From positions 62,001-126,000 of the forward strand of contig NZ_CP018225.1 of assembly GCF_001890385.1 (NCBI RefSeq): DNA of 64,000 nucleotides, read 5' to 3'. Numbering within the stretch: the stretch's first letter is position 1; each line of letters starts with the position of its first letter. This document shows, piece after piece, positions 1 to 60,969 of the stretch. The position numbers and the translations under genes are program-made. Origin of the DNA: Tardibacter chloracetimidivorans. Its GTDB lineage: Bacteria > Pseudomonadota > Alphaproteobacteria > Sphingomonadales > Sphingomonadaceae. The notes under the pieces were generated by a model. It saw only the letters and a program-made list of their open reading frames with translations. It was not told the DNA's origin and did no database searches.

Positions 1-59
1 GCTCCGAGCACCACGAACAGGCGGTTGTTCGCCGACCAGTCGATGAGACGGCCGATCAT
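1..59 (-). CDS. cusA: CusA/CzcA-type RND efflux pump, N-terminus only
   Basis: Only the first 19 codons lie in the window, reading MIGRLIDWSANNRLFVVLG. This is the usual N-terminal sequence of heavy-metal RND inner-membrane pumps, which begin with a short cytoplasmic helix before the first membrane span. Its ATG overlaps the stop of the upstream adaptor gene in an ATGA arrangement, so the two are translationally coupled. It would pump Cu(I)/Ag(I), or another metal, from periplasm or cytosol through the adaptor and outer-membrane channel. Substrate cannot be judged from this fragment. The copper context and the CusF-like domain on the adaptor favour copper/silver. Confidence 0.8.
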   Translation of the reverse strand, partial: MIGRLIDWSANNRLFVVLG

Positions 60-1540
60 CGCGCAGCCTCGCGGCTCAGCGTGCGAACGACAGGGCCTTC
101 CGCCGCTTGGTCGAAGCCGAAGACGACGCGGTCGCCCTTTTTGAACCCCCGCGCGAGCGCCGGGCTCCCCAGCTTGAACGTCATCGTCATGGCGGGCCAT
201 TTGAGCGCGGGGACGGCCGCGTGGCTGAGGGTGATCCGATCGCCTGATATGCTCTCGATCCGCCCGTTCGTACGATAGGCGCCGGTCGAAGGTGCTTCTG
301 CTCGCGGCGTGGCGGCTGGCCCACTGATCGGGCGCGCTTCGATGCCGGAGAGGTTGGCCTCGGAATCGATCAGGAACTGGCCGGAAGCGACAATCTTCTC
401 CCCCTCGGCAAGGCCGGCAAGGATTTCGGTCTGGCCTCCTGCTTCTGCACCGGTCTGCACCTCGGCAGGGCGGTAGCGCCCTTGCGGCAGCGCCAGCATG
501 ACGAGCGCGCGCTTGCCGGTGCGGATGATGGCTTCCGAGGGCACGAGCAGCGCCGAGCGGGCAGCGCGGCCGAGATCGACCGAGGCGAACATGCCGGGGC
601 GCAGGCGCCCGGCTCGATTGGGAAGTTCGATCCGCACGGTGAGCGTCCGGCTTTCGGCGGCGACGCTTGGGAGAATCGCGGCAATCCGGCCCATGAAGCG
701 TTCGCCGGGATAGGCGGCGAGGGTCGCGGTCGCGCTCTGCCCCGGCCGGAGCCTCCCGGCCATCGCCTCCGGCACTGCGGCATTCAGCCACACCGTACCC
801 AGCCCGTTCACCTCTGCGAGTGTCTGGCCGCTCGCGACCGTCATCCCGGCCCGGACGCCGAGCGTCTTGATGGTGCCGCCGGTTGGCGCCGAGATCGTCA
901 CCACATTATGCGGTCGCCCGCTCCGCTCGACTGCTGCGACCGTACCCGCAGGCATGCCGAGCAGCAGGAGGCGCTGACGGGCCGCGTGAGCGAGGCCTGC
1001 ATCGCCGATCCTTCGCACGGCCAGATATTCCGCCTGCGCGCCCGCCCATTCCGGCACCAGGATATCGGCGAGCGGTGCGCCTGCCCCGATCACATCGCCG
1101 GGCGCGCGCGCGTAGACCCGTTGGACGAAGCCACCGGTTCGCGCCTGGACGATGGCGACGTCGCGCTCGTTGAACTCGATCGTACCGGTCGCCGTGAGGC
1201 TCGATCCCAGTGTCCCGGTCCGCGCTTCCGCGATGCGCAGGCCAAGCGATTGGGTGCGCGCCGGATCGATCGCCACGCCGGTCTCGCCACTCGCTGCCTC
1301 GTCGGCATATTTGGGTACAAGCTCCATATCCATGAACGGCGACTTGCCCGGCTTGTCGAAATGCTGGCTCGGGACCATCGGGTCGTACCAGTAGAGGATC
1401 TTGCGCCCGCCCTGCGCCGTTGCGGCCGGTGGATCTTCATGGCGCCAAGTCGCCAGGCCATAGCCGAGGGCTCCCGCCGCCAGTGCGAGCGCCGCGGCCG
1501 CCGTGCCAAGCTGCGCGCGCGAGGTCATGTCGAATTTCAT
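56..1540 (-). CDS. cusB: CusB-type RND periplasmic adaptor with fused CusF-like domain
   Basis: 494-residue membrane-fusion protein linking an RND pump to an outer-membrane channel. Residues 1-30 form a signal/anchor helix. Residues about 48-80 form a heavy-metal-binding domain with YWYDPM and SPFMDMELVP. The lipoyl/barrel-sandwich and beta-barrel regions follow to about residue 400. Residues about 420-490 resemble CusF, the small periplasmic copper chaperone, with a Trp-Pro-Ala-Met-Thr-Met stretch (WPAMTMTFKL) matching the Cu(I)-binding Trp/Met pattern. In enterobacteria CusF is a separate protein, so this is a fusion. The start overlaps the outer-membrane gene (ATGA) and the stop overlaps cusA. 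Family assignment is firm. Copper specificity is inferred from the CusF-like tail. Confidence 0.93.
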   Translation of the reverse strand: MKFDMTSRAQLGTAAAALALAAGALGYGLATWRHEDPPAATAQGGRKILYWYDPMVPSQHFDKPGKSPFMDMELVPKYADEAASGETGVAIDPARTQSLGLRIAEARTGTLGSSLTATGTIEFNERDVAIVQARTGGFVQRVYARAPGDVIGAGAPLADILVPEWAGAQAEYLAVRRIGDAGLAHAARQRLLLLGMPAGTVAAVERSGRPHNVVTISAPTGGTIKTLGVRAGMTVASGQTLAEVNGLGTVWLNAAVPEAMAGRLRPGQSATATLAAYPGERFMGRIAAILPSVAAESRTLTVRIELPNRAGRLRPGMFASVDLGRAARSALLVPSEAIIRTGKRALVMLALPQGRYRPAEVQTGAEAGGQTEILAGLAEGEKIVASGQFLIDSEANLSGIEARPISGPAATPRAEAPSTGAYRTNGRIESISGDRITLSHAAVPALKWPAMTMTFKLGSPALARGFKKGDRVVFGFDQAAEGPVVRTLSREAAR

Positions 1541-2766
1541 TGGCTGTTCCCCCCAAAGGTGAGGACGAGCCGCACGGCATCGCGCGCGAATTCGGCCTCC
1601 CTGTCGAGCAATTGCAGCTCGCTGTCGGCGAGCATGGTCTGGGCCTCGATCACGTCGAGCAGCCCGGCGCGTCCGGCGGCATAGCTCGCGGTCTCGAGGT
1701 TCGCGCGGCTACGCGCGAGCGGCAGCAGCGTGTCGCGGGCGCGCATCCACTGCTCATGGTGCATGGCATGGTCGGCAAGGCCGGCTTCGAGATCGGCGAG
1801 AAGGGACCGGCGCATGTCTTCCTGCTCGGCAAGCGCCGCAGCGGCGGTCGCCGCGCTGGCGGCGATCATCGGGTCCTGCCGCCGTTTGGCAAAAAGCGGC
1901 AGGCTGACAGTGACGCCGGCCGAAACCATGTCACCATAGCGATCCGCCCGGCGCTGATAGGCGACGTCGAAGCCCCAGTCGGGGCGCTTGTCGGCCCGGG
2001 CGATCCCGACGTCCGCCTCGGCCTGGGCGACCCGGGCACCGGCGGCGCCGAGATCGGGGTGGGTGGTTATGGCGGCGCGCAGGGCTGCGGCGTCGATAGT
2101 AAGCGCAGGGATATTACCGACCACCTCAGGCGCGGGCTCGCCGGTCCAGCGCGAGAGGATCGCGCGTTGGCGCGCCACTGCGGCGGCGAGCTCGCTCCGG
2201 CGGTCTTCCAGCACCGCGAGTGCTTGCCGCACCTGCAGCGTCTGTGCGGGGCGCGCGGTGCCGGAGGCGACGCCGCTCTTTGCCGCGGAGGGAAGGGGGG
2301 CGAGCTTGGAAAGTATGCCGTCGAGAGCGGCAAGACGCCGTTCCGCATAGGCGAGATCGATCCATGCCAGCGCGGTTGCGACCTCGACGCGGCGGCGTTC
2401 GGACAAAAGTGTCGCCTCGGCAGCTTCGACATCGGTTCGCGCCCGGCTCGTCCGAGCATGGCGCTTGGCGGCGTTGGGAACATCCTGAGAGATACCCACT
2501 CGCGCCATCGTCATGCTGTCTTCGACGAAGCTCCCAGCTGGCGGGCCCGATACGGGGAAATTGTCGATACCGAGCCCGAGCTTGGGATCGGGGAGCTGCC
2601 CTGCCGCCGGCAGTGCGGAGCGGCGCGCATCGACCTCCAACCCCTTGGCACGGAGCGACGGAGCTTGCGCCTCCGCTCGCGCAAGCGCCTCCTCGAAGCG
2701 GAGCGGCCCGGCGAGGGCTGGAGTCGGTAGCGCCAATAGCGGCACGGCGAGGAAAAGGGTGCGCAT
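1537..2766 (-). CDS. cusC: TolC-family outer-membrane channel (CusC-like)
   Basis: About 409 residues with a signal peptide ending near PALAG and long alternating helical stretches (LRFEEALARAEAQAPSL, LPDPKLGLG) typical of outer-membrane efflux proteins. It should form the trimeric channel that takes metal from the CusB/CusA pair across the outer membrane. The ATG at 2766 is preferred over the one at 2772 because a GGGAG ribosome site sits about six bases upstream. It is the first gene of a cusC-cusB-cusA operon whose genes overlap by four bases. The 130 bases upstream show no recognised operator. Confidence 0.9.
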   Translation of the reverse strand: MRTLFLAVPLLALPTPALAGPLRFEEALARAEAQAPSLRAKGLEVDARRSALPAAGQLPDPKLGLGIDNFPVSGPPAGSFVEDSMTMARVGISQDVPNAAKRHARTSRARTDVEAAEATLLSERRRVEVATALAWIDLAYAERRLAALDGILSKLAPLPSAAKSGVASGTARPAQTLQVRQALAVLEDRRSELAAAVARQRAILSRWTGEPAPEVVGNIPALTIDAAALRAAITTHPDLGAAGARVAQAEADVGIARADKRPDWGFDVAYQRRADRYGDMVSAGVTVSLPLFAKRRQDPMIAASAATAAAALAEQEDMRRSLLADLEAGLADHAMHHEQWMRARDTLLPLARSRANLETASYAAGRAGLLDVIEAQTMLADSELQLLDREAEFARDAVRLVLTFGGNSQ

Positions 2767-2900
2767 GAACATCTCCCGTTCGGGGGTTCCCGGCGCGGAT
2801 CACAAGGCTGCCAACACGGCGCCGACGCGGGGGCTTGATGTCCCGCGCCGGCGCCGCGCGCCTGGCCCTGCTTTTCTGATCTGACGGCCGGGACCCGAGC

Positions 2901-3173
2901 TTAGCCGGCTGTAGGCTTGTCGCGGCCGTGATGCATCATGCCCATGCATTCATCCGCGCTCATCTTCATCATGTCGCAGTCGCAGTTCGCCATCTGGGCA
3001 TGATCCGCGACCCAGACGCGCTGCCGGACCGGGCCGGTCGCACGCGGGCCGTATTGCGGCACCGATCGCCATTCATAATGGCCTTGGGTCGAGCTATGCG
3101 AGGCATCCGCCCAAGCAGGGGCGGCGACGCTCAGGGCGGCCGCCATAGCAGCCAGAATCATCTTCTTGTTCAT
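2901..3173 (-). CDS. Small exported Met/Cys/His-rich protein
   Basis: 90 residues with a signal peptide (KKMILAAMAAALSVAAPAWA). The C-terminal half is rich in possible soft-metal ligands: NCDCDMMKM, ECMGMMHH. The ATG at 3173 follows an AAGGAT ribosome site; a GTG one codon earlier is possible. It lies just upstream of cusCBA on the same strand. I do not recognise a named family. Composition and neighbours suggest a periplasmic copper binder or chaperone, which is inference only. Confidence 0.7.
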   Translation of the reverse strand: MNKKMILAAMAAALSVAAPAWADASHSSTQGHYEWRSVPQYGPRATGPVRQRVWVADHAQMANCDCDMMKMSADECMGMMHHGRDKPTAG

Positions 3174-3245
3174 CACGAATATCCTTGTCTGAATTGAAAG
3201 AGGTCACGGCGCCGCGCGGGAAAGCGCGCGTAAGCAATGGTTCAA

Positions 3246-3608
3246 TCAGCCAAGGTTCGTGGGAGGATCCGGATCAGGACCGAAGGACTTCCCGGCCAGG
3301 ACGGCGTTGGTCGGCCAGAAGCCGAGGGCGCCATGAATACGCGGCGTGGCAATATCGCCCGCAAGATCAGCGGCGGCCAATGGAACAACGCACCCCATGG
3401 CGGCAATGCAGTCGAGTGTAAGGCCCTTGCACGGCTTTTTCTCGGGCGCGGGCTGCTGCTTGGCCATCATGGCCATGCAGTCCGAATCCATCGCCATCGC
3501 CTTGGGCGCGCTCATCGCCATCGGAACGCTTCGCGCAGCCGCCATCTGGCCTCCGAAGAGACCCAACAGTGCTCCGACAAGGAGCAGCGAGGCGAAAAAG
3601 CGTTTCAC
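3246..3608 (-). CDS. Small exported protein with Met/Cys segments, unknown function
   Basis: About 120 residues. A hydrophobic N-terminal segment (FFASLLLVGALLGLFGG) is followed by AMAMDSDCMAMM, a lysine/proline linker, then CKGLTLDCIAAMGC. The Cys/Met pattern resembles small proteins found beside bacterial copper operons, but I cannot name the family. The start is uncertain: GTG at 3608 gives a clean KR-led signal peptide, and TTG at 3626 adds six residues with a purine-rich site upstream. It reads in the same direction as the cus genes. Confidence 0.6.
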   Translation of the reverse strand: MKRFFASLLLVGALLGLFGGQMAAARSVPMAMSAPKAMAMDSDCMAMMAKQQPAPEKKPCKGLTLDCIAAMGCVVPLAAADLAGDIATPRIHGALGFWPTNAVLAGKSFGPDPDPPTNLG

Positions 3609-3658
3609 GAAGATTGTTTCTAGCAAAAGCCCCTTAGGGAACCAAATGAAGATTAGCG

Positions 3659-4096
3659 TTAATGGCGAGCGAATACGCGTTGGCCCGAAGGTCCGAACGC
3701 AACCACGACATAAGGCTGCGCCCGCTGACCAGTCACTTCCATGCCGGGCGAGCCGATCGGCATCCCTGAAACCGCAAGGCCACTTACGCCGCGGGGACGC
3801 TGCGCCAGGAGCCGCTTCATGTCGGCGATCGGCACATGGCCCTCGAAGACCAGACCATCGATCACCGCGGTGTGGCAGGAGGACAGCTGTTGCGGGACGC
3901 CCCGCGCGCGCTGGAAGGCTGCGCGTGAGCGATCATCCACGATGGTTACAGGGCGCCGGAACTGCGCGCGGACCTGCTCAGTCCATTTCTGGCAGCATCC
4001 GCATCCGGGGTCACGGTGCACCAGAATGGGCGCCGCAGCGGTCGCTGCGTTCGCGATGAACATTGCAGTGAGCGCCGCGATCGATTGCTTTCTCAA
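3659..4096 (-). CDS. DUF411 metal-binding protein (copy 1)
   Basis: About 145 residues: signal peptide, then HRDPGCGCCQKW, the cysteine-rich start of the DUF411 domain, and conserved SCHTAVIDG, EGHVP and MPIGSPGME motifs. DUF411 proteins are small periplasmic proteins commonly encoded with copper resistance genes; their exact role is not established. No ATG fits. A TTG at 4096 lies eight bases after GGAGG and yields a proper signal peptide (MRKQSIAALTAMF). A close paralogue is at 24480-24917, and both have the same ECF-type promoter motif upstream. Confidence 0.9.
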   Translation of the reverse strand: MRKQSIAALTAMFIANAATAAAPILVHRDPGCGCCQKWTEQVRAQFRRPVTIVDDRSRAAFQRARGVPQQLSSCHTAVIDGLVFEGHVPIADMKRLLAQRPRGVSGLAVSGMPIGSPGMEVTGQRAQPYVVVAFGPSGQRVFARH

Positions 4097-4163
4097 GTCA
4101 CCGTCCTCCAAACCTCAGCCCGGTCCCTGCGCGTGATTGCCATGCTCGTACACATCTCCTGGG

Positions 4164-4190
4164 TATACGCACCAGGAAGACGGAGCCCTC
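4164..4190 (-). promoter_or_regulatory. ECF-type promoter motif upstream of DUF411 copy 1
   Basis: On the minus strand, GAGGGC, 13 bases, then TGCGTATA. The spacing and both elements match the motifs before the other DUF411 gene, the sigma operon, copAB and copCD. The -10-like element ends 67 bases before the TTG start. It was found by eye; no score was computed. Confidence 0.6.
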
Positions 4191-4404
4191 ACATCTGCTC
4201 CAAAATTTCGCCGGTCGCACATTGACGGCCTTTTTCTAATGTCAGGGCGACCGTTTGGTTTGCGCGGCCGACGTCGAGGACGTGTTTCTGGTATATGAGG
4301 TCGCGAACCCCTGACCTCATTGTGGAATTCGCCGAGCTCCGATTCAGGTGTAGAGAGATCCGCGCCGACGAGCCTAATGGCTGCGCACACTACGTATATC
4401 GAGC

Positions 4405-4436
4405 TTGGACCAAGGACCATAGTCCTGACGACGAAG
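4405..4436 (+). promoter_or_regulatory. Possible MerR-type operator upstream of a small copper-island gene
   Basis: TTGGAC at 4405 is followed by the dyad AGGACCATAGTCCT (4413-4426) and GAAGAC. It resembles the MerR-type site at 9599 (dyad TGGACCACGGTCCA), but spacing differs by about one base on each side. Weak evidence. Confidence 0.3.
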
Positions 4437-4496
4437 ACCAGATCTTCCCCTCGAGAATCGAGCGGCAATATTCAACATTCTTCCAAGGAGTCGAGT

Positions 4497-4781
4497 ATGA
4501 CGAAGTTTCTCTCGATTGTGGCCATGAGCTTGCTCTCAATCGGTTCGACCGCGAACGCGCAGGTTCGCACGAATACGAATCCGGTCGCCCAGGCACACGT
4601 TGCGGCCGAGACGGCCAAGCATGCCAAGCACGACAAGTCCGAACATTGCGATGCGATGGAGAAGTCCATGGGGACCAACCAACTGCACAGCCACGCGGAG
4701 GAAAAGGGCACGATTGCTCAGACTCCGATGAATCGTCAGCATGCCGACTGCCGGAAGATGATGAGGAAGAACAAGAAGTAG
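4497..4781 (+). CDS. Small exported protein with LHxHxExKG / PMNxxH motif
   Basis: 94 residues. ATG at 4497 gives a signal peptide (KFLSIVAMSLLSIGSTANA). The mature part is His/Lys-rich and ends with CDAMEKSMG, LHSHAEEKG, PMNRQHADC. The same C-terminal pattern occurs in the lipoprotein at 10118-10336 (CRAMEGQMG, LHDHNEMKG, PMNLSHERC), so the two belong to one uncharacterised family. The two cysteines and several His/Met residues could bind metal. No named domain is recognised; a periplasmic copper-related role is inferred from context. Confidence 0.7.
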   Translation: MTKFLSIVAMSLLSIGSTANAQVRTNTNPVAQAHVAAETAKHAKHDKSEHCDAMEKSMGTNQLHSHAEEKGTIAQTPMNRQHADCRKMMRKNKK

Positions 4782-5114: not shown

Positions 5115-8024
5115 ATGAGCCTTGGCGTTTCGAGTGGGGATCTGATCGGCTCCTGGAGCCTGAGTTTTTCGGACATCGCGTTCGTGACCGGCAAAGCGGA
5201 GACGGCACGACTGGGATTGGCGGTTCAGCTTAGATTTTTCGCCGGGCATGGCTTCTTTGTGCCGGATCATGCGTCGATACCCTCCGACGGTGTCTTGTAT
5301 CTGGCGGAGCAACTTGGTCTCGATGCCAAATCCGTGAACCACTATGATTTTTCCGGGCGCACCGCCCGCCGGCATTGCGCGGAGATTTTGCGGCATCTCG
5401 GGTTCCGCCGTATGACGCAGACGGATCGCAGGGCGTTGTCGAGGTGGATTTCCGACGATCTTTGTGCGGGCGGGCAGCCGATCAATGCCATGCTCGAGCA
5501 TGTTTTCCTGTGGTGCCGCGACCGCCGTATCTATGGGCCGTCGCGCAAGGAGCTGGAACGCCTCGTCCGTTCGCAACGACACCTCTATCTGGAGGCCCTG
5601 TTGGCCCGAGTCCGCGATCGGCTTGCGCCGGATGCGGTCGCCTTGCTGGAAGCCTCGCTCGCCGATCCCGATGGCCCGACCGGCTTCAACACGATGAAGG
5701 GGGATGCAGGTCAGGCGACGCTCGAAAACATTCTTGGCGTGACCGCCAAACTCGCCTTTATCCAACGGCTTGCTCTTCCCCGAGATTTCCTATCGGTCAC
5801 GGGCAAGGCATGGGTCGATCAGATCGTTCGCCGGGTTGCCGGCGAGAAAGCCTCGGAGATGCGCCGGCATGTACCGGCGCGCCAGCTCGGGCTCTATGCC
5901 GTTTATCTGATGGCGCGGGAAGCTCAGCTTACGGATGCGATGGTCGACCTGCTGATCGAGACGGTCCATAAGATCGGATCGCGCTCGAAACGCAAGGTGG
6001 TGGGCGATATCGCGAAAGACATCGAGCGGGTCTATGGCAAGGAGCGACTCCTGGTCGAGATTGCCAGCGCTTCGATCGACGATCCATCCGGGCGCATCTG
6101 CGATGTCATTTTCCCAATCGCCGGCAAGGACAAACTGGCGGCGATCATCAAGGAAAGCCAGGCAAAGGGCGCCTTGGATCGGCGGATCTACAAGGTGATG
6201 CGGAGGTCATGGGCCAATCATTATCGCCGTATGCTGCCAAGCCTGCTTTCGGCACTGGAGTTCCGGTCGAACAACGCCGTGTGGCGTCCGGTGCTGGCGG
6301 CCCTGGACTGGATCAGAAGCAAAGTGGATGATGGATGCCGCTACGTGCCGCCGCACGCAGTGCCGGTCGACGAGGTCATTCCGGCGAGATGGCGCAGTTC
6401 CGTCATTGATGAAGAGGGGCGCGTAAACCGGATCAGTTATGAGCTTTGTGTCCTCGCGCAACTGCGCGATCGCATCCGTTCTAAGGAAATCTGGGTTGTC
6501 GGGGCGGACCGATACCGCAATCCCGATGACGATCTTCCCAAGGACTTCGATGCGCGGCGAGAAGCATATTACACAGGATTGAACCTGACGGCGGATGCGC
6601 GTGCATTTTCAAGCGCCATCCGGGAAGAGCTTGCTCAGGAACTGTTGCTCCTCAATGCCAATATTCCCCGGAACGACAAGGTTCGGCTGCTGTGGCGCGG
6701 CGAGAACCGTATATCTCTCACCCCGTTCAAACCCTTGCCCGAACCCAGGGGTCTCGCCTCGATCAAGACCGAGATCGGCCAACGCTGGCCGATGACCGGG
6801 CTGCTCGACGTACTGAAGGAGGCTGCCCTTGATACGGGACTTCTCGAAGCGTTCGAAACATCGGCCTCGCGTGTTGCACTGCCGAAAACCGCGCTGGATC
6901 AACGTCTCCTGCTATGCCTCTACGGCCTGGGAACGAATGCCGGGCTCAAGCGGATCGCCGGCGCCACCCCCGATGTCAGCTATGAAGAGCTGCTGCATGT
7001 CCATCGCCGCTTCGTTCATGCCGCGGCGCTCAAGGAGGCGTGTGCCAGGGTTGCGAATGCGACCCTGGCAATCCGCAATGCTGCAGTCTGGGGGGACGCC
7101 GGCACGGCCTGTGCGTCAGATTCCACAAAGTTCGGAGCCTGGGATCGCAACCTGATGACGGAATGGCATGCGCGTTATGGTGGACGGGGCGTCATGATCT
7201 ACTGGCATGTCGAACGACGCGCGACATGCGTCTATTCCCAGCTCAAGCGCTGCTCTTCCTCCGAGGTCGCCTCCATGATCGAGGGCGTGCTGCGCCATTG
7301 CACCGACATGGAAATCCAGCGACAATATGTTGATAGTCATGGCCAAAGCGCGGTTGGCTTTGCATTTTGCCGGCTTCTCGGATTTGAGCTTGCACCCCGC
7401 CTGAAAGCGATCGCTCGCCAGAAGCTGGCTCTTCCCGATGTCGGCATGCGAACGCGGCTTCCCCACTTGCAGCCGATCCTCTCCAGTCCGATCAACTGGG
7501 ATGAGATCGAGCAGCAATATGACGAGATGGTCAAATATGCAGCCGCGATGCAGACAAAAACCGCCGACCCGGAGGCGATCCTGCGCCGGTTTAGCCGCTC
7601 CGAGGTGATGCACCCGACCTACAAGGCGTTGAGTGAGCTGGGCCGCGCGGTCAAGACGATCTTCCTGTGCCGGTATCTGCGCGAGGAGTCCTTCCGCCGC
7701 GAAATTCATGAAGGCCTGAATGTCGTTGAAAACTGGAACAGTGCCAATGGGTTCGTTTTCTTCGGCAAGGGCGGCGAGATCGCCACTAACCGCATCGATG
7801 AGCAGCAGCTCTCGGTCCTGGCGCTACATTTGCTGCAAGCGTCGCTTGTCTATGTGAACACCCGAATGCTTCAGAGCGTGCTGGTGGAACCGAAATGGAC
7901 GGGCCGGATGACGCCGGATGATTATCGCGGCCTCACACCGCTGATTTACAGCCACGTCAATCCTTATGGCCGCTTCGACCTCGATCTGAATAGCCGGATC
8001 GATTTTGGGCGGCTTGCTGCCTGA
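5115..8024 (+). CDS. tnpA: Tn3-family transposase
   Basis: 969 residues, the normal size for Tn3-family transposases. An N-terminal DNA-binding region carries the DUF4158-like start with an SFSDIAFV motif. The C-terminal DDE domain shows the first Asp in ASDSTKFG (about residue 675), the second in YVDSHGQS, and the Glu in the GLNVVENWN region. AAGGGAG lies upstream of the ATG. The frame is intact and the catalytic acids are present, so it may be active. It binds the 38-bp ends and makes a cointegrate that the downstream resolvase would resolve. Confidence 0.97.
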
Positions 8025-8166
8025 CCGGGGCCTTTCCGCTCGCACCATTTGGGTGCACCCGAACGTGACGATCGGAAGTGACATATACGACATGTCACAA
8101 AAGGGTGGTTCCGTCACCAATGTTACTGTACGAGGGCAAAGCCACCCTAATGTGACGGATTTGCCC
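8025..8166 (+). promoter_or_regulatory. Candidate res site / promoter between tnpA and tnpR
   Basis: The 142-bp spacer holds dyads expected of a resolution site. The clearest is GTGACAT-N7-ATGTCAC (about 8080-8100). Further GTCAC/GTGAC half-sites lie on both sides, together with GGGTGG/CCACCC arms. Serine resolvases of Tn3 elements bind such clustered dyads next to their own gene. Confidence 0.55.
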
Positions 8167-9033
8167 ATGACCCGCGTCGGCTACGCCCGCGTCAGCACCA
8201 TCGACCAGGATCTCGACATCCAGGTTGCCCGGTTGAAGGCAGCGGGCTGTGAAATCCTCCGCTCCGAAACAGGCTCGGGCGCATCGCGCACTGGACGCAC
8301 GGAGCTTGAGACGATCATGCAGTTCCTGCGCGCCGATGACGAACTCGTCGTCCTGCGTCTCGATCGGCTCGGTCGCTCCACACGCGATGTTCTCAATCTG
8401 GTTCATGAACTCGACCAGAAGGGAGCCTCATTGCGGGTGCTTGAGCCGGAGGTGACGACGGCCGGAAGCATGGGGCGGATGGTGATCACCATTCTGGGCA
8501 TGGTCGCGGACATGGAACTGACGTTCATCAAGGACCGGCAGCGCGCCGGGATCGAGGCGGCGCGCGCCGAAGGCGTCTACAAAGGCCGGAAGAAAAACAT
8601 CGATGACGATGAAATCCGACGCCGGATCACCGCCGGCGCGAGCAAGGCCAGCGTCGCGCGCGACCTCAAGATCTCAAGAATGACCGTCTATCGGGCGCTT
8701 GACGTCATTCCTTCAAGGATCGGGCTGCCGGAAAAGCCGCCTTCTGTCACCATCGCCCTGCATCTGACCATCGAGAACTTCAACAAGCATGGTCGTGGCA
8801 GAAAGCCCGCTCGCGAGCGCATTGAGGCGATGCTGGAGCGGGATTACCAGATGCAAAAGACCGGGAACTGCGATTACACGCTGACCGTCGCCTATGATCA
8901 GGGTGCCGATGGCGTCAGCCTCGATGATGAGATCGCATCTCTCCAGACAGAGATGTTCAACATCGCAGAGAGCTACAGGTGCTCGATCGAGACCGATGTT
9001 TACGAGATTGGAGGACAAGAGCGAGCCTGGTAG
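8167..9033 (+). CDS. tnpR: Serine recombinase (resolvase) with C-terminal extension
   Basis: 288 residues from ATG 8167. The catalytic Ser is in GYARVSTIDQD, with the resolvase motifs RSETGSGASRTGR, VLRLDRLGRS and GRMVITILGMVADME. An HTH region (SKASVARDLKISRMTVYRAL) follows at about residues 160-185. About 95 extra residues after the HTH have no motif I recognise and are not part of classical 185-residue TnpR. It resolves cointegrates at the res region just upstream. A longer reading to 8005 would add a low-complexity stretch overlapping tnpA and is not favoured. Confidence 0.93.
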   Translation: MTRVGYARVSTIDQDLDIQVARLKAAGCEILRSETGSGASRTGRTELETIMQFLRADDELVVLRLDRLGRSTRDVLNLVHELDQKGASLRVLEPEVTTAGSMGRMVITILGMVADMELTFIKDRQRAGIEAARAEGVYKGRKKNIDDDEIRRRITAGASKASVARDLKISRMTVYRALDVIPSRIGLPEKPPSVTIALHLTIENFNKHGRGRKPARERIEAMLERDYQMQKTGNCDYTLTVAYDQGADGVSLDDEIASLQTEMFNIAESYRCSIETDVYEIGGQERAW

Positions 9034-19424: not shown

Positions 19425-20450
19425 ATGGCGAAAACCATGAAGGCGGCGGTCGTCCGCGAATTTGGCAAGCCCCTGGTCATCGAGGACGCGCCGATCCCGA
19501 CGGTCGGCCCCGGGCAGGTCCTGGTCAAGATTGCGGCAACCGGCGTGTGCCATACCGACCTGCACGCGGCAGAAGGGGACTGGCCGGTCAAGCCCAACCC
19601 GCCCTTCATTCCTGGCCATGAGGGCGTCGGGCATGTCGCCGCCGTTGGTGCCGGCGTCACCCATGTGAAGGAAGGCGACCGGGTCGGTGTGCCCTGGCTC
19701 TACACCGCCTGCGGGCACTGCGTGCATTGCCTGGGTGGCTGGGAGACGCTTTGCCACGAACAGCAGAACACCGGCTATTCGGTCAATGGCAGCTTTGCCG
19801 AATATGTCCTCGCCGATCCCAACTATGTTGGTCACCTTCCCGACAATGTCGACTTCCTCGACATTGCGCCGATCCTCTGCGCGGGCGTCACCGTCTACAA
19901 GGGATTGAAGGCCACCGAGGCCCGACCCGGCGAGTGGGTGGTCGTCTCCGGCATTGGCGGGCTCGGCCACATGGCGGTGCAATATGCCCGAGCCATGGGT
20001 CTCAATGTGGCCGCGGTCGACATCGACGATAGCAAGCTCGACCTCGCTACACGCCTTGGCGCCACACTGACGGTCAACGCGCGCAACGAGGACCCTTCGG
20101 CAGCGCTCAAGAAAGCCATTGGCGGCGCGCACGGGGCGCTGGTGACCGCCGTTTCGCCCAAGGCGTTCCAGCAGGCGCTCGGCATGGTCCGGCGCGGCGG
20201 CACGGTCGCGCTCAACGGCCTGCCGCCGGGCGACTTCCCGTTGTCGATCTTCGACACCGTGCTGAACGGCATTACCGTGCGCGGCTCGATCGTCGGCACG
20301 CGGCTCGATCTGCTCGAGGCACTGGCGTTCGCCGGCGAGGGCAAGGTCAAGGCCACGGTCCATGCAGACAAGCTGGAGAACATCAACGACGTCTTCTCCC
20401 GCATGCATCATGGCGACATCGAGGGCCGGATCGTCCTCGACCTCGCCTGA
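19425..20450 (+). CDS. adhP: Zinc-dependent alcohol dehydrogenase (AdhP-like)
   Basis: 341 residues with an AAGGAG ribosome site. Catalytic zinc ligands are in [15 protein letters not shown] and GHEGVGHV. Structural zinc cysteines are in [16 protein letters not shown]. The Rossmann motif is [13 protein letters not shown]. It interconverts primary alcohols and aldehydes with NAD(H) in the cytosol. Coupled to the aldehyde dehydrogenase upstream. Only 25 bases separate it from the multicopper oxidase, so read-through is likely. Confidence 0.95.
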
Positions 20451-20475
20451 AGCCGACTTCGCGAAAGTACAGTTC

Positions 20476-22182
20476 ATGTCTCCCTTACATATCCGGCCGA
20501 TCGCGCGGCGCCGTTTCGTCCAGGGGCTGGCGATCGGCGGCGCGGTTGCCGGCTTCGCCCCGGCGCTTCTCGCGCGATCCGCCCCAGTCTCGCCCGCCGA
20601 GCTTAGCGGGACCGAGTTCGACCTCGAGATCGCCGAGCTGCCAGTCAACTTCACCGGCAAACGCCGTATCGCGACCGCCGTGAACGGCAGCGTGCCCGCG
20701 CCGGTCCTGCGCCTGCGCGAAGGCGACACGGTCACGCTCCGTGTGCGCAACGGCCTCAAGGAGATGTCGAGCATCCATTGGCACGGCATCATCGTGCCGG
20801 CGGAGATGGACGGCGTGCCCGGCATCAGCTTTGCCGGCATCGCGCCGGGCGAGACCTTCACCTATCGCTTCGAGGTCCGCCAGAGCGGAACCTACTGGTA
20901 TCACGCTCACACGCTCGCCGAGCAGACGGGACTCTATGGAGCGATCATCGTGGAGCCGAAACAGGCGCCGGCGGCGCGGGCGCCCGATCGCGACTATTGC
21001 ATCGTGCTCAGCGACTGGTCGGACGAGCCGCCGCTGCAGATCTTCCTCAATCTCAAGAAGCAGAGCAGCTACTATAATTTTGCGCAGCCGACCGCCGGCG
21101 ATTTCCTCAAGGATGTCGGCACCATGGGCTTGGGCAAGGCGCTCGAGCGGCGGCGGATGTGGAACAGCTCGCGGATGAACCCGACCGACTACAGCGATGT
21201 CTCTGCCGCGACCTACACCTATCTGATGAACGGCGCGCCGCCCGCCGGCAACTGGACCGGTATCGCCGCGCCCGGCGAGCGCGTGCGCCTGCGCTTCGTC
21301 GGCGCGGGGACGGCGACGTTCTTCGACGTGCGGATCCCCGGGGTCGAGCTGACGGTCGTATCGACCGACGGGCAGCCGGTCGAGCCGGTCACGGTCGAGG
21401 AATTCCGGATCGGCCCGGGCGAGACCTACGACGTCGAGTTCACCATGCCCGAGGGCGGCGCCCGCACCATCTTCGCGCAGGCGATCGATCGGAGCGGCTA
21501 TGCGCGTGGCACGATCGCACCGGCCCCGGGCATGGCGGCAGCCGTGCCGCCGCTCGATGCCCGGACCTGGCTCGAGCCGGTCGACATGATGGGCGCGATG
21601 GCGACGATGGGCGCAATGGGAGGCGACGCGCATGCCGGGCACGGCATGACCGAGATGCCGGCCAGGGCACGGCACGCCCGCACCGAATATGGCGCCAATA
21701 CCGACATGCGCGTCGACTATCCGCGCACCAATCTCGACGATCCCGGCGCCGGGCTGCGCGGGCGCGGCTGGCGCGTGCTGACGCTGGCCGATCTGCGCAC
21801 GCCGGGCGGCGATCCCGACCCGCGCGAGCCCGAGCGCGACATCGAGCTGCATCTGACGGGCAATATGGAACGGTTCATCTGGTCGCTCGACGGCATCAAG
21901 CTCAACGATTCCAGGCCGCTTCATTTCAAGCCAAACGAGCGGCTGCGCGTCACCTTCGTCAACGACACGATGATGGCGCATCCGATGCATCTGCACGGCA
22001 TGTGGAGCGATGTCGAAGGCCCGGACGGCGCCTTCCAGGTCCGCAAGCATACGGTCGTGGTCCAGCCCGCCCAGCGGGTGAGCTTCCGCGTCACCGCCGA
22101 CGCCATGGGCCGATGGGCCTTCCACTGCCATCTGCTCTATCACATGGCGGCCGGCATGTTCCGGGAGGTGGTGGTCGCATGA
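20476..22182 (+). CDS. copA: CopA-type multicopper oxidase (copy 1)
   Basis: 568 residues with a twin-arginine signal (ARRRFVQGLAIGGAVAG). Copper ligands show in IHWHGI, YWYHAHT, HPMHLHGMW and HCHLLYHMAAGM, giving type 1 and trinuclear sites. A Met-rich insert near residues 370-400 (MMGAMATMGAMGG, MTEMPA) is typical of PcoA/CopA. It works in the periplasm, oxidising Cu(I) and probably binding copper. The upstream gap is short and the stop overlaps copB (ATGA). It differs clearly from the longer copy at 55432-57357. Confidence 0.95.
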   Translation: MSPLHIRPIARRRFVQGLAIGGAVAGFAPALLARSAPVSPAELSGTEFDLEIAELPVNFTGKRRIATAVNGSVPAPVLRLREGDTVTLRVRNGLKEMSSIHWHGIIVPAEMDGVPGISFAGIAPGETFTYRFEVRQSGTYWYHAHTLAEQTGLYGAIIVEPKQAPAARAPDRDYCIVLSDWSDEPPLQIFLNLKKQSSYYNFAQPTAGDFLKDVGTMGLGKALERRRMWNSSRMNPTDYSDVSAATYTYLMNGAPPAGNWTGIAAPGERVRLRFVGAGTATFFDVRIPGVELTVVSTDGQPVEPVTVEEFRIGPGETYDVEFTMPEGGARTIFAQAIDRSGYARGTIAPAPGMAAAVPPLDARTWLEPVDMMGAMATMGAMGGDAHAGHGMTEMPARARHARTEYGANTDMRVDYPRTNLDDPGAGLRGRGWRVLTLADLRTPGGDPDPREPERDIELHLTGNMERFIWSLDGIKLNDSRPLHFKPNERLRVTFVNDTMMAHPMHLHGMWSDVEGPDGAFQVRKHTVVVQPAQRVSFRVTADAMGRWAFHCHLLYHMAAGMFREVVVA

Positions 22183-23165
22183 TCCGGATTTTCCCCTCGC
22201 GCGGCATCGCTCTTGGCGCTGCCCTCTTCCTGGCGCCGGCGATCACGGCTCCCGCCCTCGCGCAGGATGCCTCGCCCCCGTCGCCCGCCGCCACCCCTGC
22301 CCAAACGGCCACTCCCGCTCAGCACACCCCTTCCGCGCAAGGCTCTCAGGACCATGCGGGCATGGACATGCCGGGCATGGATATGACCGACACGAAGGCG
22401 TCCGGTAACGGCGCCACGATGGACATGGGCTCGATGCAGGGTGGCAAGGCCCCGCCGGACGCGCGCAACTCGGACGATTATGCCGACGGCTATCGCAACT
22501 CGACGCTGCCGGGCTATGAGATGGCCGACAAGCTCTCGATCCCCAAGATACTTGTCGATGAGCTCGAATTCGCCAGCGGCAACGAGGGTCAGGGCGTGGG
22601 TTGGACCGTGCTCGTCACCAAGGGTCAGGACAATGACAAGCTCTGGCTGCGCAGCCAGGGCCTCAAGAACTCCCGCGACCAACGTCTCGATCCGGAGAGC
22701 AGCGTCGAGGCGCTGTGGTGGCACAGCAAGAACCCGTTCTGGGGCACGCTGCTCGGGGTCAGGCAGGATCTCGGCAAGGGCGCGACGACATGGCTGGCCG
22801 CCGGCGTCGAGGGACTGGCGCCTTATTGGTTCGACGTCCAGCTCACCGGCTATGTAGGGACCGATGGGCGTCTCGCGGCGCGCGCCAAGGCCTCCTATGA
22901 GGTCCTGTTCACCAATCGGTTGATCCTTACGCCGCAGGTGGAAACCAATATCTATTCGAAGCGGTCGAGCGATCGGCAGCTCGGCAGCGGCTTCAGCAAT
23001 GTCGAGCTGAGCGGACGGTTGCGCTACGAGGTGTCGCGCAAGTTCGCGCCCTATATCGGCTTCGTCTGGGAGCGCGCATTTGACGGCACGGCCGATTTCC
23101 GTCGCCTGCGCAGGGAAGGGCCTTCCGAACACAGGCTGGTGATCGGCTTGCGCGCCTGGTGGTGA
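22179..23165 (+). CDS. copB: CopB outer-membrane copper resistance protein (copy 1)
   Basis: 328 residues. Signal peptide, a Pro/Ala-rich linker, a Met/His segment (HAGMDMPGMDMTD, MDMGSMQGG), then a roughly 220-residue beta-barrel (LRSQGLKNSRDQRLDPESSVEALWWHS, ending GLRAWW). The C-terminal Trp fits an outer-membrane protein. CopB sequesters copper at the outer membrane. Translationally coupled to copA by ATGA, and overlaps the start of the MFS gene. Confidence 0.92.
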   Translation: MIRIFPSRGIALGAALFLAPAITAPALAQDASPPSPAATPAQTATPAQHTPSAQGSQDHAGMDMPGMDMTDTKASGNGATMDMGSMQGGKAPPDARNSDDYADGYRNSTLPGYEMADKLSIPKILVDELEFASGNEGQGVGWTVLVTKGQDNDKLWLRSQGLKNSRDQRLDPESSVEALWWHSKNPFWGTLLGVRQDLGKGATTWLAAGVEGLAPYWFDVQLTGYVGTDGRLAARAKASYEVLFTNRLILTPQVETNIYSKRSSDRQLGSGFSNVELSGRLRYEVSRKFAPYIGFVWERAFDGTADFRRLRREGPSEHRLVIGLRAWW

Positions 23166-24400
23166 TCCGCGGATGGCCACTCGAGGGATCGACCGCGAAC
23201 GCGCCGCGTGACAAGGCTGGATCGCAAGCCAACGGTCGCTGGCCGGCCTCCTTTTTCGTCTTGTTGCTCGCGGCGGCTGCGGCGTCGGCGGGACAGACGG
23301 CCATTCTCGCCTTCCTTCCGGCACTGGTCGACCCGGCTCGTGGCGCGCTATCGTCAAGCGCTCATGATTTTCACGTCGCGAGCCTGACCGCGGTCCATCC
23401 CCTGGCAGCCTTGCTGGCGGCGCCGCTCTGGGGCTGGATCGCGGACCGGGTCGACTATCGGGCGATGTTGCGCGCAGCGCTGGTCATCCTCGCGCTGGTG
23501 ACCGCGCCGATCGGCCTCGTCGGGTTGCCTGAGCTTTATGCATTGCGTCTGGTGGCGGGGATGGCGTCGGCCGCCATCATACCGTTGGGCTTGCTCTGCG
23601 CGAGCTTTGCCGCAAGCGGGCGCGCGGACCAGGCGCGCCGCTTCACCTGGCTGACCGCCTTCGTGTTTCTGGGCGATCTCGCCGGTCCGCTGGTGGCGGA
23701 GGTCTCGGCCGCGATCCTGCCCCGCGCTCCCCTCATGATCCTCGCTCTCGGCATCGGTGCCGTCGGGGCGGCGCTTTGCGCCGTGCGTCTGCCGCGCTGG
23801 TGTGCACCTTGCATCGATGGCGGAGACCTGCCCGCGCCTACGCTCGGCGCGACGTTGATCCTGCTTTTTATCACGATCGTCGCGGGCGGCGGGCTGGCGG
23901 CGATGCATGTCAATCTCCTGGTGACGCGGAGCGCCATTTCGCTGAGCCGCGAAGAGATCGCCTGGATGCTCAGTCTCTGCGGATTGGGCATGCTGGCGGC
24001 ACAGATCTTCCATGCAAAGCTGGATTGGCTGGTCACTGTGCCGAGGCGGCTTGCCGGATTGACGCTGGGCCTGCTGGCTGTGGCACTTTTCATGTTTCCT
24101 GTCGCCGCGAGTATGGCCGAGCTCAGTGGGATCATCGTTGCTGCCGGCTGGAGCTCGGCAACCCTTCGATTGGTCACCAGCTTCTGGATCAGCGGCGGCG
24201 GGGCCCCTTCAGGCGTGAAGCTCGGTTTCCAGCATTCCGCCGCCAGCATCGGGCAGGCGCTCGCGCCGCTGGCGATAGCCATCGTCGCTCCCGGGGCGCA
24301 GCCGCTCGTTCTGTGGGGGATTGGTGGTCTATCGCTAGCGCTGCTTGTGTCCCTGCCGCTAGCCTGGAGGCCGCCCGCCATCGTAAAATCATCTGCGTGA
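23159..24400 (+). CDS. MFS transporter
   Basis: About 413 residues with 12 hydrophobic segments and the MFS signature GWIADRVDYRAMLRA between spans 2 and 3. The start is GTG at 23159 or 23162, inside the end of copB, so it is co-transcribed. The substrate is unknown. Placement after copAB suggests a metal, siderophore or other stress-related export role, but no motif decides this. CAPC in the central loop could be a metal ligand. Confidence 0.85.
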   Translation: MVIRGWPLEGSTANAPRDKAGSQANGRWPASFFVLLLAAAAASAGQTAILAFLPALVDPARGALSSSAHDFHVASLTAVHPLAALLAAPLWGWIADRVDYRAMLRAALVILALVTAPIGLVGLPELYALRLVAGMASAAIIPLGLLCASFAASGRADQARRFTWLTAFVFLGDLAGPLVAEVSAAILPRAPLMILALGIGAVGAALCAVRLPRWCAPCIDGGDLPAPTLGATLILLFITIVAGGGLAAMHVNLLVTRSAISLSREEIAWMLSLCGLGMLAAQIFHAKLDWLVTVPRRLAGLTLGLLAVALFMFPVAASMAELSGIIVAAGWSSATLRLVTSFWISGGGAPSGVKLGFQHSAASIGQALAPLAIAIVAPGAQPLVLWGIGGLSLALLVSLPLAWRPPAIVKSSA

Positions 24401-24401
24401 T

Positions 24402-24428
24402 GAGGGGAGGGGCGCATTGATGCGTATA
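24402..24428 (+). promoter_or_regulatory. ECF-type promoter motif upstream of DUF411 copy 2
   Basis: GAGGGG, 13 bases, TGCGTATA. It begins just after the MFS stop and lies 51 bases before the ATG of the DUF411 gene. Same elements and spacing as four other sites in the window. Confidence 0.65.
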
Positions 24429-24479
24429 GAAAAGAAGGGGCCTCTGCCCCATGCTTATCGTTCTTCCGGGAGTCATTTC

Positions 24480-24917
24480 ATGAAGACCCGCCTATTCGTC
24501 GCCTTGCTGTTCCTCGCCATGCCCGGCGTAGCGCTTGCGGCCAGTGATATCGTCGTCCACCGGGATCCGGGATGTGGATGTTGCGAGAAGTGGGCGCAGG
24601 CCGTGCGCGCGAAGCTGGGACGCAAGGTCGTCATGCGTGACGATGCGTCGCGCAGCGAGCTTCAGCGCAAGGCCGGCATGCCCCGGACGCTGGCATCTTG
24701 CCACAGCGCGATCGTCGATGGCTATATGATCGAGGGCCATGTCCCGATATCCGACGTCAAGCGCTTGCTGGCGACCCGTCCTGCGGGCGTCAAAGGCATT
24801 GCGGTTGCGGGGATGCCGATCGGTTCGGAGGGCATGGAAGTGGCAGGCGCTGCCCGCCAACCCTATACGGTGGTGGCCTTCGGCAGCGCCGGTCAGCGAA
24901 TTTTCGCCCGCCATTGA
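24480..24917 (+). CDS. DUF411 metal-binding protein (copy 2)
   Basis: 145 residues. Signal peptide ending VALA, then HRDPGCGCCEKW, SCHSAIVDGYMIEGHVP, VAGMPIGSEGME and FGSAGQRIFARH. Very similar to the copy at 3659-4096, including the last residues. Periplasmic, probably copper binding through the CGCC cluster. It has its own ECF-type promoter motif, so it can be expressed apart from the upstream copAB-MFS genes. Confidence 0.93.
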   Translation: MKTRLFVALLFLAMPGVALAASDIVVHRDPGCGCCEKWAQAVRAKLGRKVVMRDDASRSELQRKAGMPRTLASCHSAIVDGYMIEGHVPISDVKRLLATRPAGVKGIAVAGMPIGSEGMEVAGAARQPYTVVAFGSAGQRIFARH

Positions 24918-25177
24918 TATCGCGCGGTTTGCAGCATCCTGCAGAATTGCCCGGTGGTAGAGGACCCCGCTGTCGAGTGTAGAACCTTGTGTCAAGCGAG
25001 CTGATGGCGTCCCTACCCCTACCTACACTGAAAAAGCAACGATTTGTCTTGTAAGTTGTTCGCGGTCGTCTCCCTGATTTGCCTGAATTTGGCCCAAAAT
25101 GTGGAACGATTGTGGGACCGTTTGCCCACCGAAAGTGTGAGAACGGCCCCAACATTCCCGATCAGGGCCCCGAACCG

Positions 25178-51005: not shown

Positions 51006-51458
51006 TCAATGCTTTCGAAGCGTCTCGGCGCGGTGCCGGTCCAACGCATCGAGCAAAGCCCTGCCGATCAAAGGCTTTGCGAGAACGTGATCGAAGCCCG
51101 CCTCGGCGGCCCGCGAGGCCAGCAGCGTGTCGTGAAAGCCTGAGATCATGATGGCGCGTCCCGACCATCCGATCTCGCGAAGGTGACGCAGCATCGCGAA
51201 TCCGTCGATGTCGGGCATGCGATAGTCGAGGATGACGCAGTCTGCTTCCTTCGCGCGCGGGTCGGCCAACAGCGCGTGGCCGGTGGTATATCCCCACACA
51301 GCATAGCCGCGCGATCTCAGCAGCAGCTGGAGGCCACGCCGCACGCCGGGATCGTCGTCGGAAACGAGGATGGTGTATCTGCCATCATGCTGGGTGGAAC
51401 GGACCGATGGCATTGCGAGAAGCGGACACCCGTGTGACGATTGCACCATCGATCGCAT
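51006..51458 (-). CDS. Stand-alone response-regulator receiver protein
   Basis: Up to 150 residues, with a CheY-like receiver only: acidic pocket SDDDPGVRRG, phospho-acceptor Asp in CVILDYRMPDIDG, conserved Ser/Thr region MISGF, and Lys in VLAKPLIG. No output domain. It is downstream of fixLJ on the same strand, 36 bases after fixJ. The first 15-25 residues are poorly conserved, so the start could be ATG 51413. It may act like FixT-type or other single-domain modulators of the FixL phosphorelay; this is inference. Confidence 0.85.
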   Translation of the reverse strand: MRSMVQSSHGCPLLAMPSVRSTQHDGRYTILVSDDDPGVRRGLQLLLRSRGYAVWGYTTGHALLADPRAKEADCVILDYRMPDIDGFAMLRHLREIGWSGRAIMISGFHDTLLASRAAEAGFDHVLAKPLIGRALLDALDRHRAETLRKH

Positions 51459-51494
51459 ATCGCGCCCCGTCCCGTCGCTACGTAGAGGTCGCAG

Positions 51495-52118
51495 TCACTT
51501 CGGCTTGCGGCCCATGCCCGCGGCAAAGGCGATCCGCAGGGCTTCGGACAAATTGCGGACCTCGAGCTTGGCCATCAGGCTCGCGCGATGGACCTCGACC
51601 GTTCGCGATGAACAGCCCAGGTCATAGGCGATCGTCTTGTTGGGCAGGCCGTTCGCCAGCCTTTCGAGCACTTCCCGCTCCCGGGGCGTCAGTGCAGCGA
51701 CCCGCACCCCTGCTTCGGACGTTTCCAGGGTACGAAGGTCGACATCGTCGAGACGTGCGAACGCGCGGCTGACGGCGCCGAGCAGGGCCGCTTTCTCGAA
51801 GGGCTTCTCGAGAAAGTCGACCGCGCCGCCTTTCATGGCCTGCACCGCAACCGACACGTCGCCATGGCCGGTCAGGACGATGACCGGCATGTTGACCCCG
51901 CGTGCTGCCATGGCGGCCTGAACCTCGAGACCGTCCATCTCGGGCATGCGCACGTCAAGGATGACGCAGCCGACGGCCGCCGACTTCGCCTCCTTGAGAA
52001 ACTCCACGCCCGAGGCATAGGTCACGACGTCGTAGCCCGCGGTCTTGAGCGCAAAGCTCGCCGCCTTGCGGATGCTCTCCTCGTCGTCGACCAGATGGAT
52101 GACGCGTCTATCCCCCAT
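51495..52118 (-). CDS. fixJ: FixJ-family response regulator
   Basis: 207 residues from ATG 52118 (GAGGAGGAAC). Receiver domain with VIHLVDDEESIRKA, CVILDVRMPEMDG and FLEKPFEK, then a LuxR-type HTH LTPREREVLERLANGLPNKTIAYDLGCSSRTVEVHRASL. It activates transcription when phosphorylated by FixL at low oxygen. Overlaps the kinase gene by 11 bases. Likely targets (cbb3 operon, fixK) are inferred; no box was found before ccoN. Confidence 0.95.
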   Translation of the reverse strand: MGDRRVIHLVDDEESIRKAASFALKTAGYDVVTYASGVEFLKEAKSAAVGCVILDVRMPEMDGLEVQAAMAARGVNMPVIVLTGHGDVSVAVQAMKGGAVDFLEKPFEKAALLGAVSRAFARLDDVDLRTLETSEAGVRVAALTPREREVLERLANGLPNKTIAYDLGCSSRTVEVHRASLMAKLEVRNLSEALRIAFAAGMGRKPK

Positions 52119-53643: not shown

Positions 53644-53701
53644 CGGCCGGCTCACATGCCTGGCCGGGCGCGCGTATCCGGGCGTAGCCCGACCGAGCCG
53701 C

Positions 53702-57398: not shown

Positions 57399-57425
57399 AA
57401 TACGCAGCGTGGCCTCATCCCCCTC
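57399..57425 (-). promoter_or_regulatory. ECF-type promoter motif before copAB
   Basis: Minus strand GAGGGG (57420-57425), 13 bases, TGCGTATT (57399-57406). Spacing and sequence match the sites before copCD, the sigma operon and both DUF411 genes. Confidence 0.65.
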
Positions 57426-58430: not shown

Positions 58431-58699
58431 TGCGAGCTCAGTAGCGTCGAGGGCGCAAGCGCGAGCCGGGCATCGAAGGGCGATATCGGGTTCGGATCGG
58501 CAGACTGCGTCGGAACCGCCGAGCCGGCAATTCCGATGAACAGCGCGGTTGCGGCCGCGATGCCGAATGTCGTTGCGCCAAGGCGCGGTATGGCCTGGAT
58601 GCGCGCTATTTCCGCCATGACCCGGCTTTCCAGACCGCCGAGCCTGGGATCGAGAGGCGCATCGCGCAACCGCGAGAGCAGGTGGTCAAGTTCATCCAT
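58427..58699 (-). CDS. Anti-sigma factor (CnrY/NccY-like)
   Basis: 90 residues. A short cytosolic N-terminus (DELDHLLSRLRDAPLDPRLGGLESRVMAEI) that would grip the sigma factor, one span (LGATTFGIAAATALFIGIAG) and a short periplasmic tail. Size, layout and operon position match CnrY/NccY rather than zinc-containing anti-sigmas. Leads the Y-X-H operon, with the ECF-type motif 24 bases upstream. Confidence 0.82.
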   Translation of the reverse strand: MDELDHLLSRLRDAPLDPRLGGLESRVMAEIARIQAIPRLGATTFGIAAATALFIGIAGSAVPTQSADPNPISPFDARLALAPSTLLSSQ

Positions 58700-60944: not shown

Positions 60945-60969
60945 GTCAGGCGTCGAAAGGAGCAAGGCG

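Follow-up and report, generated by a model that had tools for sequence, protein, structure and literature searches.

A two-block motif stands ahead of a DUF411 gene in a 64,000-nucleotide stretch of Tardibacter chloracetimidivorans DNA (here the window, part of contig C5, 182,640 bases), and the locus raises the question of whether this gene answers to a sigma factor encoded more than 50 kb away, together with the other copper genes around it. On the explanation that we favor, and consider very likely as a whole, the two blocks are the -35 and -10 elements read by a CnrH-type sigma factor, which serves five promoters, including those of two DUF411 genes. The motif would very probably be the on-switch common to the copper-defence genes on this sphingomonad plasmid. 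Recognition of the motif by the sigma factor, induction by metal and the length of the transcripts are what we infer from the sequence. The features on which the argument relies, apart from the genes behind the first DUF411 gene, are the following.

3659 to 4063, minus strand: DUF411 #1, CopG-like with CxCC (PF04214, E 2.4e-24; best solved relative 6wis, E 1.7e-25)
4164 to 4190, minus strand: predicted ECF promoter of DUF411 #1, with -35 (T)GAGGG (T at 4191) and -10 TGCGTATA, based on pattern and spacing
24402 to 24428, plus strand: predicted ECF promoter of DUF411 #2
24480 to 24917, plus strand: DUF411 #2, CopG-like (PF04214, E 3.3e-24)
54266 to 55435, minus strand: copB (PF05275)
55432 to 57357, minus strand: copA-type multicopper oxidase (TIGR01480, E 3e-244)
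57399 to 57425, minus strand: predicted ECF promoter of copA, with the T of its -35 at 57426
57424 to 57990, minus strand: CnrH-like ECF sigma factor (CnrH 4cxf, E 4.3e-30)
57987 to 58430, minus strand: CnrX-like periplasmic metal sensor (PF13801, E 5.1e-25)
58430 to 58699, minus strand: small anti-sigma candidate of 90 aa in the CnrY position
58724 to 58750, minus strand: predicted autoregulated promoter of the anti-sigma/sensor/sigma operon, an AAGGGT variant
58775 to 58801, plus strand: predicted ECF promoter of copCD
58832 to 59212, plus strand: copC (NF033814, over cut-off)
59217 to 60146, plus strand: copD (NF033808, over cut-off)

The initial annotation had read GAGGGC-N13-TGCGTATA on the minus strand at 4164-4190, and the motif is indeed there, as GAGGGCTCCGTCTTCCTGGTGCGTATA. 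The distance to the sigma operon (53-54 kb) and the second copy before another DUF411 gene, 20.2 kb away at 24402-24428 on the plus strand, are likewise as described. Shuffling the window 100 times never produced a match to both blocks with a gap of 11-15. Across the whole genome (3.79 Mb, five contigs), RAGGG-N14-TGCGTATW occurs at exactly five sites, all of them inside the window, four preceding copper genes and one preceding the regulator operon, while the reversed pattern used as the whole-genome control has no match. One-mismatch forms of this pattern are weaker evidence (seven in the genome vs two for the reversed control), and no chromosomal regulon is claimed from them. The single chromosomal exact match to the extended pattern YRAGGG-N14-YGCGTAW, C1:2556260, lies inside an ORF whose product we take to resemble a Tn3-type transposase; this site is attributed to chance. 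At the copA promoter (57399-57426), the TGA stop codon of the sigma gene doubles as the start of the TGAGGG -35 element, and in several relatives the copA motif likewise starts at about the end of the sigma gene.

The spacing between the two blocks is fixed. In 30 loci that carry the best relatives of the sensor (103 kb, the window's own locus among them), YRAGGG-Nx-YGCGTAW gave 72 exact sites in 28 of the 30 loci at x = 14, none at the twelve other spacings (x = 8-13 and 15-20) and none when reversed. These 72 sites represent 61 distinct 27-mers; six of the loci, the window included, have sensors 97% or more identical to that of the window and supply 18 of the sites. The base ahead of RAGGG is a pyrimidine in every one of the 63 distinct training sequences, which had been gathered without that requirement, hence the working consensus TGAGGG-N14-TGCGTAT. 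A weight-matrix null was discarded, since the loci on which it was built themselves contain true sites; the spacing and reversed controls took its place.

The proteins encoded beside the copA promoter point to the Cnr family. The sigma factor matches CnrH well ahead of its next best solved structure (SigW, E 1.2e-16) and carries PF04542 and PF08281, that is, regions 2 and 4 only. Its 188 residues stop directly after region 4 (match to residue 181), without a cysteine-rich C-terminal domain; a copper ECF factor of the CorE type was considered and ruled out on the lack of that metal domain. CnrH-like factors carry the group label ECF20 and CorE-type copper factors ECF44. The best solved relatives of the sensor are NccX and CnrX (the latter deposited as CnrR), at E of about 1e-19, and in an alignment judged by eye it has identical residues at all five positions that we take to be the metal ligands of CnrX (H42, H46, E63, H119 and M123). 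When forced into alignment with CnrY, the anti-sigma candidate shows weak similarity; it has no Pfam match.

In the proposed mechanism, metal in the periplasm would bind the CnrX-like sensor and, by analogy with Cnr, the small membrane anti-sigma protein would release the sigma factor. The holoenzyme would then start transcription about seven bases past the -10 element at five promoters, those of its own operon, copAB, copCD and the two separately placed DUF411 genes. The promoter of DUF411 #1 would probably also drive the co-oriented cusCBAF genes, as CnrH drives cnrCBA, and DUF411 (CopG) would handle periplasmic Cu(I) alongside CopA and Cus.

Motif and sensor occur together across genomes. 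Among 298 genomes of the family, divided into those with a close sensor, those with a distant sensor (the split at E 1e-35 was chosen in this analysis) and those with none, exact RAGGG-N14-TGCGTATW was found in 44 of 76 close-sensor genomes (101 sites vs 8 reversed), in 10 of 50 distant-sensor genomes (13 sites vs 5 reversed) and in 12 of 172 sensor-free genomes (13 sites, vs 16 reversed sites in 15 of the 172), counts that take no account of relatedness. The motif in sensor-free genomes is thus at the level of the reversed control. Thirty-two of the 76 close-sensor genomes have no exact copy, and some of them have forms with one or two mismatches; at one locus (L093), the 3.4 kb scanned held no motif within two mismatches. 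In a sample of 240 genomes from the class, the sensor was found in 5, three of these five in other families. A looser search of those three loci (RAGGG, 12-18 bases, CGTAW) returned three, three and one sites, all with a distance of 16 bases from RAGGG to CGTA.

For the DUF411 genes themselves, we examined 112 genes in 93 genomes, drawn from at least 117 DUF411-bearing genomes of the 298, with distance counted from the start of the tblastn alignment and three partial hits (L125, L127 and L128) dropped. The initial annotation had named absence of the motif upstream of DUF411 in relatives carrying the CnrYXH-like operon as the outcome that would speak against it; in sensor-bearing genomes, a near-exact motif is present within 1.3 kb of 37 of 84 genes, vs none of 28 in sensor-free genomes (Fisher 3e-6, a value that ignores relatedness). 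Allowing one mismatch at most, copies lie within 350 bp of 18/58 close-sensor, 3/26 distant-sensor and 0/28 sensor-free genes, and within 1.3 kb of 26/58, 11/26 and 0/28, respectively. The 18 nearest copies span 16 genomes and 10 genera, five of the rows sharing one identical 27-mer. The reversed pattern was absent upstream of all 112 genes, in every group. For the other 47 of the 84 genes from genomes with a sensor, the upstream 1.3 kb (less for a few genes) contains no near-exact copy.

A second collection comprised the loci of the best 80 of at least 577 DUF411 relatives; it shares species with the 112-gene set and is not independent of it, 27-mers being identical between L190 and L139 and between L191 and L108. 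Exact copies of the motif number 135 over 0.90 Mb and are spread over 65 of these 80 loci, with none for the reversed pattern; an ORF follows downstream of 130 of the 135 sites, vs 92 of 135 in the opposite direction, a weak test in G+C-rich DNA. Within 500 bp of DUF411, the exact motif was found in 5 of these best 80. A copA gene lies upstream on the same strand in 54 of the 80, and in 35 of those 54 an exact motif stands just before copA. A sigma or sensor gene is present in 58 of the best 80 loci, and sigma/sensor genes lie upstream on the other strand in 7 of them; L055, L061 and L181-L187 are examples of sigma/sensor genes upstream of DUF411 on the opposite strand. The proposal of one motif shared by the two DUF411 genes and the sigma operon is supported, but a motif placed directly in front of DUF411 is not the usual case (5/80, best of at least 577), an upstream copA being the commoner arrangement. 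The two DUF411 genes of the window sit away from the copA operon, and each has its own motif. The closest DUF411 to #1 among these best 80 relatives (L188, 83% identical) has no motif. Thirteen loci lack all six of the cop and sigma genes within the stretch covered; 12 were checked for weaker sites, and only L208 had one, with one mismatch.

Both DUF411 proteins of the window contain CGCC (CxCC) and GMPIGSxGME in alignment, with PF04214 over cut-off. Gene #1 begins either at ATG 4063, the start chosen in the annotation of a near-identical Sphingobium sp. YBL2 plasmid, or at TTG 4096 behind GGAGG; no sigma-70-type promoter was found before either gene. They had been described as paralogues that keep the same promoter. 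Both do carry the motif, but they are 64% identical, occupy different neighborhoods and have promoters that are unlike outside the two elements (one alignment, judged by eye), and they are better read as two separately placed genes, each with its own motif.

The surroundings of the two genes show several further arrangements. A second copper-oxidase set with an MFS gene (20362-24400) lies directly ahead of DUF411 #2; no exact motif precedes that set, and only its terminal DUF411 #2 has one. A copper P1B-type ATPase followed by a MerR regulator (60925-63722; annotated cueR on pTA15-1) has no exact sigma motif, and the cytoplasmic and periplasmic copper arms appear to be under separate regulators. 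A PAS-domain protein with two response regulators (51006-53655; names from pTA15-1) adjoins DUF305/copB and is a possible second copper regulator. At 5115-9033, a large ORF resembles a Tn3-family transposase and is accompanied by a resolvase-like ORF, both judged from their translations. These ORFs separate the part with DUF411 #1 and cus from the other copper genes, and the copper island looks as if it was assembled by transposition.

DUF411 #1 heads a co-oriented DUF411-cusCBAF run, of which the following genes lie within the window.

3246 to 3626, minus strand: methionine-rich hypothetical protein, an ORF with no Pfam family, in the same run as DUF411 #1
2901 to 3176, minus strand: small hypothetical protein, an ORF with no Pfam family, in the same run
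1537 to 2772, minus strand: TolC/CusC-type outer-membrane protein (PF02321), in the same run
56 to 1540, minus strand: CusB with a C-terminal CusF domain (PF16576 and PF11604)

Beyond the window, on the same strand, follow the RND pump gene cusA (PF00873) and a cusF-like gene (PF11604), as seen in L268. No terminator-like site was found on the minus strand between 1400 and 4600. On plasmid pUPO218 of Rhizorhabdus wittichii, DUF411 is followed, as in the window, by two small genes, tolC and a gene for a periplasmic adaptor; an exact motif starts 72 bp ahead of the DUF411 start codon, in promoter DNA unalignable with the window's. It appears to be an independent copy of the motif before a diverged DUF411-tolC-adaptor run. 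In another genome (G204), an exact motif about 550 bp before DUF411 is followed by cusC and cusB, whose proteins are 59% and 62% identical to the window's. Because these two loci and the window's run all keep the motif ahead of the DUF411-cus order, the sigma factor probably also controls copper RND efflux, as CnrH does with cnrCBA, and the extension of the regulon to Cus efflux is plausible.

Diverged copies of the DUF411 #2 promoter reveal which bases are kept. Five such promoters (the window, a Sphingobium cloacae plasmid, L270, L271 and L272, the aligned part of L270 being that of S. cloacae, so that there are four variants) retain TGATGAGGGG and TGCGTAT, while spacer and flanks vary. This supports the earlier proposal of selection on co-regulation, since both elements persist in the #2 lineage as the bases around them change. 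Plasmid p1 of Caulobacter sp. FWC26 has the same copA-copB-MFS-DUF411 order as the window, with a DUF411 gene that is 71% identical to #2 in DNA over the aligned part and has no motif ahead. A nearly identical copy of the DUF411 #1-cus run in G113 (contig C2, L269:389-415; DUF411 #1 99% identical) is missing two bases of the -35 element and represents a natural promoter variant.

Could the pattern have arisen without selection on a promoter? TGCGTAT alone is no more frequent in the window than chance predicts (5 found vs 4.27 expected), and the extended pattern YRAGGG-N14-YGCGTAW, counted genome-wide as one-mismatch forms together with 6 exact ones, is at control level (53 sites vs 49 reversed), both of which would suit a chance match. 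The significance rests on the two-block pattern with its fixed spacing: all five exact sites of the genome lie at copper genes or the regulator operon, with no reversed match, and exact matches in the spacing test occur at N14 only. These results refute chance, whose probability we put at practically nil. Inheritance by transfer of the copper island, with conservation reflecting recent common ancestry instead of selection, has more in its favor, as positions 24300-24920 of the window are 100% identical over their full length on 14 plasmids among the matches listed, and positions 1500-4600 are at least 99% identical on four plasmids. It is nevertheless already largely refuted by the diverged copies, in which the elements are intact within different spacers and flanks (L270, which is identical to L315 over that part, L271, L272 and L317), and the elements are also intact around sensor relatives down to about 41-50% identity; as the full account it is highly improbable.

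Two further alternatives accept the sites and shift the regulation. DUF411 might be mainly under another copper regulator, either a two-component system such as that at 51006-53655 or CueR, with the motif minor or decaying. This would suit FWC26 p1, where a PAS-domain/response-regulator set like that at 51006-53655 adjoins the motif-less DUF411, as well as the loss of part of the -35 in one copy of DUF411 #1 and the lack of a motif directly upstream in most of the best 80 of at least 577 relatives. A decaying motif, however, fits poorly with the diverged DUF411 #2 promoters, where both elements are intact and the neighboring bases have changed, or with the absence of the motif from all 28 DUF411 genes in sensor-free genomes, and we consider this reading improbable. 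Rather less remote, though still unlikely, is that the sites do serve this sigma factor while its inducer is mainly nickel or another divalent ion, copper being secondary. The ligands of the sensor match those of the nickel sensor CnrX, and the genes for CopA, CopB and CopC are up in nickel-adapted Sphingobium sp. ba1, according to the consulted part of PMC5557971. Against it, the named targets are copper genes, and these together with the regulator operon take up all five exact sites of the genome, which leaves none for an operon of nickel or cobalt efflux.

The preferred reading, a CnrH-type sigma factor acting on five promoters, allows a broader and more tentative proposal, which we hold at somewhat less than even probability: that in sphingomonads and related Alphaproteobacteria a CnrYXH module was turned from nickel/cobalt efflux to periplasmic copper defence, placing unlinked DUF411/CopG and cusCBAF on one motif over more than 50 kb of plasmid, with the cytoplasmic Cu(I) pump under a CueR-like regulator. 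If this is true, a sensor that has retained the ligands of the nickel sensor would make the copper genes responsive to nickel as well, and the published nickel induction of copABC in Sphingobium would be explained; a CnrX-type sensor over the cop genes would account for the nickel response of strain ba1.

The tie between DUF411 and periplasmic copper stress that had been put forward is supported, but it is not new, as CopG is already described as a periplasmic copper-resistance protein (PMC7558416, consulted in part). The same partial source presents CopG-like proteins as widespread in the periplasm and associated with copA and cusCBA; a cluster of four copper ions is bound in their thioredoxin-like domain via CxCC and methionines. 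In the accessible portion of PMC6444534, a Pseudomonas aeruginosa homologue of DUF411 is named as responding to copper. The literature consulted yielded no account of this motif, nor of DUF411/CopG under an ECF factor; it leaves subscription journals mostly uncovered and is weak evidence of absence. What appears to be new is the predicted control of DUF411 by a CnrH-type sigma factor and its motif, a mode of control that is itself of known kind. Our verdict is that the motif is a predicted promoter, well supported, within a CnrH-type copper regulon; the case is ordinary in kind, with unusually clean evidence. It offers TGAGGG-N14-TGCGTAT as a concrete motif for alphaproteobacterial sigma factors with a CnrX-type sensor, predicts their regulon, and would bring CopG/DUF411, CopABCD and probably CusCBAF together in a single periplasmic response to copper. 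The recognition rule is directly testable with the natural -35 variant, the independent plasmid copy and a spacer one base below that of Cupriavidus.

Among known systems, DUF411 #1 agrees with CopG (PDB 6wis and 6wje), both in its match (E 1.7e-25) and in CxCC. For the regulator, the closest counterpart is cnrYXH-CBAT on pMOL28 of Cupriavidus metallidurans. Both have the order anti-sigma, sensor, sigma, one promoter ahead of the operon and another behind the sigma gene, the elements RAGGG and CGTATA, and RND efflux genes among the likely targets. On pMOL28, AAGGG-N15-GCCGTATA lies upstream of cnrY and GAGGG-N15-TCCGTATA upstream of cnrC. In the consulted part of PMC9045368, the CnrH-dependent starts precede the two genes by 24 and 25 nt; with the gene starts of the record, they fall 7 nt after CCGTATA at both promoters. 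Because of the shared elements and these mapped starts seven bases after the -10, the sphingomonad motif resembles a CnrH-type promoter whose spacer is one base shorter, and by analogy the predicted transcription starts are near 4157 for DUF411 #1 and near 24435 for #2. The systems differ in the distance from RAGGG to CGTA (17 on pMOL28, 16 here), in CCGTAT there vs mostly GCGTAT in the sphingomonad motif, in their targets (cnrCBA there; copABCD, DUF411 and probably cus here) and in the reach of the regulon, targets here being up to 54 kb distant. Other ECF factors also act in copper responses, namely CorE of Myxococcus xanthus, SigF of Caulobacter and SigAb of Acinetobacter; in the portions of the sources consulted, none is mentioned with a CnrX-type sensor. 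According to those portions, CorE senses metal through its own cysteine-rich C-terminus, SigF has NrsF as its partner and SigAb recognizes GTCAAC/CGTT, each unlike the arrangement predicted here.
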